A DNA stretch of 64,000 nucleotides from an uncultured Pseudokineococcus sp. Lineage in GTDB: Bacteria; Actinomycetota; Actinomycetes; Actinomycetales; Quadrisphaeraceae. The stretch spans positions 1 through 64,000 of the forward strand of contig NZ_CANMAA010000006.1 in the NCBI RefSeq assembly GCF_947495735.1. Direction: 5' to 3'. Both the position numbers and the translations under genes were made by a program. A model generated the notes under the pieces. The model was not told where the DNA came from. It did no database searches and saw nothing but the letters and a program-made list of their open reading frames with translations. Shown one piece after another: positions 1,985 to 4,003 of the stretch; the stretch's first letter is position 1, and the number at the start of each line of letters is the position of its first letter.

Positions 1985-2707
1985 ATGCGGCGCGTGGGAC
2001 TGGGTGGAGCGCCGGGCGAGTGGGCCGACTACGAGTGGGTGCGGCTCGCCGACCTGCCGCAGGCCCGGGACGGGCGGGCGGCCGGTGCCGCGGCGGGAGT
2101 CGCACCCGACGGGCCCCGGCGCCGGGGGCGGGTGCGGCGGTCCGCGACGAGCGCCCCGGCACCCGCGCCCGACCCGCTGGGCGCGGCCGTCTGCGCGTGG
2201 CTCGACCGAGACCCGCTGTGGGGCGAGGGACCGGGCACCCGGGTGCTGCTGGCCGACCTCGACAACCTGCGAGCCGGGCCCGTGCGCTGGCGCGCGCGCA
2301 TGGCCGTGGTGGTCGGGCTGGCGCGCCAGGCCGACGTCGTGGGCATCTCGGGCCAGCACGGCGCGGCCGAGCGCGCCGCCCCGCACCTCGGGGAGTGGGC
2401 GGAGGTCGTGCGCGCCGTCGACGACGGCAGCGACCTCGCCGACCACGAGCTGCTCGACGTCGCCGCGTCGGTGCCGGCGGAGGCGGAGCCCCTGCGCGTG
2501 GTCGTGATGAGCAACGACAACATCTTCGCCGACCTCGCCGACCGGGGCCGCCTCGTCGTCGCCTCCCCGGGGGCGGACGCCCTCAGCGAGCGGCTCGACG
2601 GCGCCGCTGCCGACGTCGTCGACCTCGCCGCCCTCGAGGGCGCGATGGCCGCGGAGCTGGCCGCCGCCCTCGAGGCCGACGACGCCGAGGAGACCGGGGC
2701 GGGCTGA
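1985..2707 (+). CDS. NYN/PIN-like domain protein, orphan
   Basis: 240 aa. Residues 1-85 are low-complexity and Arg/Ala/Pro-rich. From residue 86 there is a compact fold: a beta strand ending in LLADLDNL (Asp91, Asp93, Asn94), a middle acidic block DDGSDLADHELLD (146-158), and a strand followed by SNDNIFADLADRG (176-188). This order of D-x-D-N, D-x-x-D-x-x-L and S-x-D-x-x-F resembles the metal-binding core of NYN/PIN ribonucleases. If correct, it would cut or bind RNA. The ATG at 1985 has only a weak GGGTGGGAG upstream. The nuclease role is inference; no database match was made. Confidence 0.6.
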   Translation: MRRVGLGGAPGEWADYEWVRLADLPQARDGRAAGAAAGVAPDGPRRRGRVRRSATSAPAPAPDPLGAAVCAWLDRDPLWGEGPGTRVLLADLDNLRAGPVRWRARMAVVVGLARQADVVGISGQHGAAERAAPHLGEWAEVVRAVDDGSDLADHELLDVAASVPAEAEPLRVVVMSNDNIFADLADRGRLVVASPGADALSERLDGAAADVVDLAALEGAMAAELAAALEADDAEETGAG

Positions 2708-2713
2708 GCCCGC

Positions 2714-4003
2714 TCAGCGCACCTCGGCCAGCAGGCGCTGCAGCCGGCCCACGCCCTCGACGAGGTCGTCGTCGCCGAGGGCGTACGACAGGCGCAGGTA
2801 GCCGCTGGGCCCGAAGGCCTCGCCCGGGACCACCGCCACCTCCGCCTCGGCCAGCACGACCTCGGCGAGCTCGGCGGACGTCGTGGGGGTGCGCCCCCGC
2901 AGCTCGCGCCCGAGCAGGCCCTGCACGCTGGGGTAGGCGTAGAAGGCCCCCTGCGGCATCGGGCAGACCACGCCGTCGATCTCGCGGAGCATCGAGACCA
3001 TCGTGCGGCGCCGGCGGTCGAACGCCTCGCGCATCGACGCGACGGCCGACAGGTCGCTGGTCAGCGCCTCCACCGCGGCGCGCTGGGAGACGTTGGCCAC
3101 GTTCGACGTCAGGTGGGACTGCAGGTTGGTCGCGGCCCGCACCACGTCGAGGGGGCCGGCCAGCCACCCCACCCGCCAGCCCGTCATCGCGTAGGTCTTC
3201 GCGACGCCGTTCAGCACGACGCACGTGTCGGCGAGCTCGGGCACGAGGACCGGCATCGACGGCGCCGTGGCGCCGTCGTAGACGAGGTGCTCGTAGATCT
3301 CGTCCGTCACGACCCAGACGCCGTGCTCCAGCGCCCAGCGGCCGATCGCCTCCACCTGCTCGGGCGGGTAGACGGCGCCGGTGGGGTTGGAGGGCGAGCA
3401 GAAGAGCAGGACCTTGGTACGCGGGGTGCGCGCCGCCTCGAGCTGCTCGACGGTGACCAGGTAGCCGGCGTCCTCGCCCGCGAAGACCTCCACCGGCACG
3501 CCGCCGGCCAGGCGGACCGCCTCCGGGTAGGTCGTCCAGTACGGCGCGGGCAGGAGCACCTCGTCACCCGGGTCCAGCAGCGTGGCGAAAGCCGTGTACA
3601 CCGCCTGCTTGCCGCCGTTGGTGACGAGCACCTGCGCGGGGTCCAGCTCGAGCCCGGAGTCACGCGCCGTCTTGGCGACGACCGCCGCCCGCAGGTCGGG
3701 GAGCCCCGCGGCCGGGGTGTAGCGGTGGTTGGCGGGCTCCCGCGCGGCGGCGGCGGCCGCCTCGACGACGGGTGCCGGCGTCGGGAAGTCCGGCTCGCCC
3801 GCCCCGAAGCCGATCACCGGGCGGCCCTGCGCCTTGAGGGCCTTGGCCCGGGCGTCCACGGCGAGGGTCGCCGACTCGGCGATGCCGCCGACCCGGGCGG
3901 ACACGCGGGCCGCGGGGCCCCGGGGGGTGTCGCGGGGGGTGTCGCGCGGGGTGCCGCTCTGGGCTGCGGGGGAGGCGTCGGGGGCGGCGGTCTCGTCGGT
4001 CAC
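2714..4003 (-). CDS. aspC: pyridoxal-phosphate aminotransferase class I/II (aspartate aminotransferase-like)
   Basis: 429 aa, fold-type I aminotransferase; probably transfers the amino group between aspartate and 2-oxoglutarate. Visible motifs are [11 protein letters not shown] (95-105), SNPTG with Asn206, TDEIYEHL with Asp234 and Tyr237, the PLP lysine in [14 protein letters not shown] (Lys269), and Arg near the C-terminus in YLRLSYA. Residues 1-35 form a non-conserved tail with the repeat [12 protein letters not shown] from a 12-bp DNA repeat. The GTG at 4003 has GGAGGA 10 bases upstream. The same neighbour precedes tRNA-Trp and secE in other actinobacteria. Exact substrate is inferred. Confidence 0.85.

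Follow-up and report, generated by a model that had tools for sequence, protein, structure and literature searches.

Organization of the locus

The DNA analysed here, referred to below as the window, is the 64,000-nucleotide stretch at positions 1 to 64,000 of contig NZ_CANMAA010000006.1 from an uncultured Pseudokineococcus sp. On its plus strand lies an open reading frame at 1985-2707, which encodes the motifs quoted in the first-pass annotation. As that annotation had stated, the frame is flanked by a gene for a small protein (1206-1736), for which only a sub-threshold match to DUF4190 was obtained, and by a convergent gene for a class I/II aminotransferase (2714-4003), beyond which lie tRNA-Trp, secE and nusG. 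The GC contents at the three codon positions are 0.88/0.57/0.95 within the gene, a pattern typical of coding sequence, versus 0.93/0.82/0.71 in the same frame upstream. When the window gene was compared with its relative L002, codons 76-216, which make up the core, were found to be under purifying selection (dN 0.063, dS 0.422). Together with the open frame, the encoded motifs and the relatives found in other genomes, these properties bear out the reality of the gene. The region from 1 to 2000 is 81% GC, and CCCGCCCGG-type repeats occur at 1890-1960, just 5' of the gene.

The first-pass annotation had begun the protein at the ATG at 1985, which the comparison of 16 loci does not favor. In all 16, an in-frame ATG or GTG is located immediately 5' of the conserved GLG (GN in L013), while the ATG three codons upstream is in frame in just nine. 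The gene most likely starts at GTG 1994 and thus occupies 1994-2707 on the plus strand, encoding a protein of 237 amino acids, in agreement with the codon-position GC and with alignments A1 and A3; a start three codons earlier stays conceivable for the nine loci with the upstream ATG in frame. All residues are numbered below from GTG 1994, so that Asp91 and Asp178 of the first-pass annotation become Asp88 and Asp175. The second codon is GGA in 21 of the 35 members with glycine at that position, against 32 of 518 glycines beyond codon 20; because the sequences are related, no conclusion is drawn from this excess.

A conserved −10-like element upstream of the start codon

Seven nucleotides 5' of the start codon, at 1978-1986 on the plus strand, the sequence TGGGAGCAT (TGnGANNNT) resembles an extended −10 promoter element. 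Of the 36 family loci, which are mutually related sequences, 34 have an ANNNT box 5-8 nt 5' of the start and two, L126 and L127, lack it at this distance; for L013 the distance was taken from a GTG two codons further upstream. The background frequency of ANNNT, determined 15-109 nt upstream, is 0.0135 per offset. At the TGn positions before the box, which were not used in selecting the 34 loci, 27 of these have the T and 32 the G, and at least one member bearing the element was found in 8 of the 9 families represented. No conserved −35 element was detected among the 34 loci. The ATG at 1985 overlaps this box, consisting of its last two bases and the next G.

In Mycobacterium smegmatis, ANNNT is reported between −6 and −13 in 79% of promoters, and leaderless transcripts are reported to account for 24% (PMC6448022). 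So short a distance between the ANNNT box and the start codon in nearly all loci suggests a leaderless mRNA, and one beginning at GTG 1994 would be the simplest reading. The case shows that an apparent ATG start can belong to the −10-like element of a probably leaderless gene.

The possibility that the first codons are under additional synonymous constraint throughout the family was considered and rejected, since no general effect was found across genera and significance was reached in one genus only. This is genus g2, which we take to be Kineococcus, where, at positions of identical residue, the codons vary at 2 of 13 positions in the N-terminal motif versus 69 of 116 in the core (Fisher p 0.003), or at 2 of 15 versus 67 of 127 when four members are used (p 0.005). 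The corresponding counts are 3 of 12 versus 52 of 114 in the genus of the window (p 0.23) and 5 of 7 versus 58 of 83 in f14 (p 1.0), neither being significant.

An unnamed protein family of Actinomycetes

Relatives of the window protein were detected at E≤1e-3 in 16 of 39 genomes searched, including that of the window itself, two of the matches being weak (5e-5 and 1e-3). Strong matches in profile searches, both of which again counted the genome of the window, scored at least 235 bits in the order (28 of 396 genomes) and at least 151 bits in the class (9 of 394 genomes). Weaker matches of 41 bits or less were found in six more genomes in the order search and in ten in the class search, and in both searches each genome gave a single match. 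Within the taxonomic family of the window, 12 of 13 genomes have the gene, the one without it being 76% complete. The window protein shares 76% identity with its counterpart in P. marinus (L018) and 77% with that of an uncultured Pseudokineococcus (L019).

Alignment A3 consists of 36 distinct family members. Among the positions counted, G4, E14, W15, D88, D90, N91, R93, R102, R111, G120, R127, D150, S173, N174, D175 and F178 are invariant in all 36, and D147 is conserved in 35. The description of the protein as an orphan was thus partly right: its neighborhood in the genus of the window is uninformative, but the protein itself has relatives, the family counting no fewer than 36 distinct members.

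The statement that the protein fits no named family held up. Not one of the 36 members matches Pfam NYN (PF01936) at E≤1, and the genome of the window has no match to this model at E≤1e-3. The commonest Pfam match, KH_PARP14_2, occurs in 4 of the 36 (best E 5.7e-4); HDPD follows with 3 members and the histone-H1-like HC2 with 2. NCBIfam gave just scattered matches to 23 models, each in one or two of the 36 members, the best of which we read as low-complexity or H1-like models; the scattered matches to both collections are taken as chance or low complexity. No family name was obtained from Pfam, NCBIfam, PADLOC (window protein only) or PHROGs (three members). A sequence search of the PDB gave a best E of 0.77 for the single protein and no match for a 16-member profile, and scans of viral contigs and of plasmids, one each, revealed no relative. 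Among the literature listed, no title or opening of an abstract describes the family, which does not establish its absence from print, and no paper was found that pairs an NYN domain-containing protein with Kineococcus.

The N-terminal motif and the variable linker

The extreme N-terminus of the protein is conserved as MGLG…(Y)EW. This motif, MGLGGAPGEWADYEWVRL, comprises residues 1-18 (1994-2047, plus strand), has low predicted order and is a possible docking motif. G4, E14 and W15 are found in 36 of 36 members, M1 in 35, and G2 and L3 in 34. The full members examined (165-327 bits) bear the motif, with the variants LEW in L048 and IEW in L124, while the weak family matches show none in the stretch scanned. 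The motif is followed by a variable Arg/Pro/Ala-rich linker at about residues 19-56 (2048-2161, plus strand). With gaps counted, the mean frequency of the majority residue is 0.75 for residues 1-18 and 0.73 for residues 81-217 versus 0.22 for columns 19-55. The distance from the first EW to the core ranges from 25 to 98 residues among the 36 members, and the linker lacks purifying selection between the window gene and L002 (dN 0.767 versus dS 0.799). The Arg/Pro-rich head noted in the first-pass annotation is therefore present as a stretch of sequence, but it is the unconserved linker, the conserved parts being residues 1-18 and 81-217.

In structural models the pLDDT of the N-terminal ten-residue blocks rose from 43/44 with 16 sequences to 60/69 with 36 sequences. 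This conserved tag may dock the NYN protein to some partner. At the opposite end of the protein, the member L020 (5001-5801) carries a long lysine/alanine-rich tail resembling histone H1, possibly nucleic-acid-binding; two members match histone-H1-like models, the second being probably L123, as guessed from its length.

Assignment to the NYN fold

The region of residues 81-217 (2234-2644, plus strand) was identified as an NYN (PIN-like) domain by AlphaFold2 modeling, fold matches and a profile match. The mean pLDDT was 83.1 for the model built with 16 sequences and 88.1 for that built with 36, and the ten-residue blocks of the catalytic domain scored 89-98 and 93-98, respectively. When the first model was compared with known structures using VIA-align 2, the best matches were the NYN domains of MARF1 (5yaa, Z 12.1; 6fdl, Z 10.7) and VPA0982 (2qip, Z 10.0), the next entry scoring 7.7. 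The second model gave 11.9 and 10.7 for MARF1 and 9.9 for VPA0982, followed by 7.8. With either model, the first three ranks are thus held by NYN domains, and a gap of about 2 Z units separates them from the following entry in the list, in agreement with the NYN/PIN fold that had been proposed from the motifs.

Foldseek also placed MARF1 first, weakly, with E of 2.7e-3 and 4.9e-3 (probability 1.00) and TM scores of 0.41-0.44 by query and 0.61-0.67 by target; no match reached E 0.001. Non-NYN proteins, Rossmann and others, appear from rank 4 (E 8.7e-3 and 8.8e-3), and VPA0982 is absent among the best 50 Foldseek matches listed. Solved structures of YacP, Regnase and SMG6 are likewise absent from the fold matches listed (50 per list), which is no evidence against kinship.

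The family profile was also compared with Pfam-NYN domains of related genomes; the 55 Pfam matches listed had yielded 28 domains, 24 of which were used. The hhalign probability was 89.1% (E 2.3e-6), versus at most 0.4% for the eleven controls, all of them randomized versions (ten column-shuffled profiles and one reversed profile); with 36 members it rose to 91.6% (E 8.3e-7). A bridging protein, L129, is found by the family profile at E 7.2e-9 and also passes the Pfam NYN cut-off (31.4 versus 24.2 bits, best stretch 52 residues). Sub-threshold matches to Pfam NYN were obtained for L128, L049 and L068, and none for L015. Both sequence comparison and modeling support the assignment of the protein as a stand-alone NYN-domain (PIN-like) member of an unnamed actinobacterial subfamily. 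The family is a genuine unnamed NYN subfamily of Actinomycetes, carried by some actinobacteria.

The predicted active site

In NYN enzymes, a cluster of aspartates holds a divalent metal ion and single-stranded RNA is cut. D88, D150 and D175, found in 36 of 36 members, align with D7, D71 and D96, the three aspartates invariant among the 24 Pfam-NYN domains, in line with the order of NYN metal ligands that had been suggested from the window sequence; D90, N91 and D147 lie near them in sequence. One position differs from the S-x-D-x-D-F motif read from relatives, the second acidic residue being replaced by Ile in 35 members and by Val in one; the same position is also not invariant among the 24 Pfam-NYN domains. 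In the model, D88 ends the strand 82-88, D147 and D150 are located at the start of the helix 148-158, and D175 lies just after the strand 167-172, a placement corresponding to the expected edge of the sheet. From the alignment and the place of these residues in the predicted fold, we infer that they cluster, and the active site is probably intact. For MARF1, an acidic patch of D358, D426, D427 and D452 is reported, and double replacement of D426 and D427 is reported to reduce activity strongly (PMC6294520); for a CRISPR-associated NYN protein, D13A, a change of its first aspartate, is reported to abolish cleavage (PMC11346440).

Gene neighborhood

The order of protein genes around the gene is kept in two congeners, L051 (the same place as L019) and L052. 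Of the 23 loci compared, only those from the genus of the window show the order aminotransferase/secE/nusG; L058 and L061 have an aminotransferase close to the gene, though a distant one (28%). Since contexts differ outside this genus, the neighborhood was mostly rejected as a guide to function.

One recurrent neighbor was found in genus g2. In 6 of 6 genomes searched (L054-L057, L101 and L102), a gene for an ABC-F-like ATPase, matching ABC_tran twice and ABC_tran_Xtn below threshold, lies directly 3', the two genes overlapping by 4 nt or standing 7 nt apart as judged by match ends. In a seventh genome, L053, such a gene is located about 0.8 kb downstream. Overall the link holds in 7 of 31 loci; the 31 include L067 and L068, which hold only distant relatives and have no ABC-F match; L066 gave a distant ABC match only (31%), and the best ABC-F match in the genome of the window is on another contig. 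The adjacency is a weak lead to ribosome-linked cleavage. As a separate observation, 8 of 31 loci (L053-L057, L059, L101 and L102) have a divergent gene of about 75 codons just 5' of the NYN gene, adjoining a DUF3043 gene; no Pfam match was obtained for the copy tested, that of L056.

Proposed function and alternative readings

We consider it probable that the gene encodes a metal-dependent NYN endoribonuclease with an N-terminal docking motif and its own promoter. D88, D150 and D175, aided by D90, N91 and D147, would bind Mg2+ or Mn2+, and the metal-bound site would cleave single-stranded RNA endonucleolytically, as in MARF1, while RNA binding would fall to the invariant arginines R93, R102, R111 and R127. 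The conserved MGLG…(Y)EW motif, tethered to the catalytic domain by the flexible linker, would either dock to a partner or fold back on the enzyme. Transcription from an extended −10-type promoter of its own would yield a leaderless mRNA, and the product would probably be a housekeeping factor of RNA processing or decay. Should ribonuclease activity be demonstrated and a docking partner identified, the protein would be a further RNA-decay or RNA-processing factor for these actinobacteria. A role as a protein-only RNase P replacing the RNA-based enzyme was also considered, but the genome encodes an RNase P RNA (RF00010, 270.3 bits), which speaks against it.

A more specialized role would be that of a ribosome-associated endonuclease like Rae1/YacP of Bacillus, in which the NYN domain would cut mRNA on stalled or paused ribosomes while the N-terminal motif docks it to the ribosome itself or to a factor bound there; to this we give a small but appreciable chance. 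According to PMC12320835, the A site of the ribosome is where Rae1 attacks mRNA, and no match to PF05991 (YacP) was found in the 13 genomes of family f1 searched. The ABC-F-like neighbor in g2 points in the same direction, but the link extends to 7 of 31 loci only, that of the window not among them, and none of the 36 members matches PF05991 itself at E≤1. Extended further, the protein could be a new actinobacterial ribosome-coupled mRNA endonuclease that takes the role of Rae1 where no YacP is detectable, the MGLG…(Y)EW tail serving as a tag read by the ribosome or the ABC-F factor and the leaderless mRNA being possibly autoregulated at its conserved 5' end; the chance that all of this is correct appears slim. 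There is also a small chance that the NYN domain is catalytically weak or dead, and that the protein merely binds RNA or another protein. The Ile or Val at the second acidic position of S-x-D-x-D-F and the divergence of the family beyond the reach of the Pfam NYN model are both consistent with such a loss, against which stands the conservation of the three Pfam-NYN-invariant aspartates together with D90 and N91 in every member, and of D147 in all except one.

It is very unlikely that the protein is a PIN-type toxin of a toxin-antitoxin or defense module, even though it is small, has a PIN-like fold and is accompanied in some loci by the small divergent gene described above. A comparison of 22 loci, with gene calling confined to partners of at least 70 codons, showed none shared by all, which leaves room for a smaller antitoxin, and no PADLOC model matches the window protein. 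The single match per genome, the presence of the gene in nearly all genomes of the family of the window, and the lack of relatives in the viral-contig and plasmid scans likewise argue against a toxin. A Rossmann-type dehydrogenase or a sugar-isomerase-like (SIS) domain in place of a nuclease appears extremely improbable. A weak Pfam SIS match (E 0.23) was obtained, and many Rossmann oxidoreductases stand lower in the fold lists, some near MARF1 in Foldseek E-value; the SIS match, however, is below the cut-off and limited to 1 of 36 members, while NYN domains outrank every other entry listed by VIA-align 2 and the NYN profile match lies well above its shuffled controls.

Comparison with known NYN proteins

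The best fold match is the NYN domain of MARF1 (PDB 5yaa and 6fdl), to which 135 and 137 residues were aligned at 3.0 and 3.4 A and in which the acidic patch follows the equivalent order. MARF1 is reported to be a metal-dependent endoribonuclease (PMC6294520), the activity by analogy with which RNA cleavage is predicted for the present family. The two differ in sequence, with 15-17% identity to the window protein, and in architecture, MARF1 being described as a large protein that also carries RRM and LOTUS domains, whereas a single domain and a short N-terminal motif are found here. VPA0982 of Vibrio (PDB 2qip), an uncharacterized bacterial NYN protein, is similar over 130 residues at 3.4 A (Z 10.0), with 16% identity; its conserved site is reported to consist of D14, D92 and D115 (PMC11346440).

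Rae1/YacP (PF05991), reported as a bacterial NYN endoribonuclease, is a possible functional analogue that differs in sequence, no family member matching its model. In the genome of the window no PF05991 match was found at E≤1e-3, and 3 of 39 genomes have one. The Pfam NYN (PF01936) proteins of related actinobacteria share with the family the profile-profile match and the same three invariant aspartates, and differ in having S-x-D-x-D-F where S-N-D-x-I-F is found here. The proteins described here form a coherent NYN subfamily that escapes the Pfam and NCBIfam models used in the searches; its catalytic residues can be predicted, and its terminal motif is strictly conserved. Compared with these known systems, the subfamily is new as a variant and ordinary in kind, that of the NYN-type nucleases.
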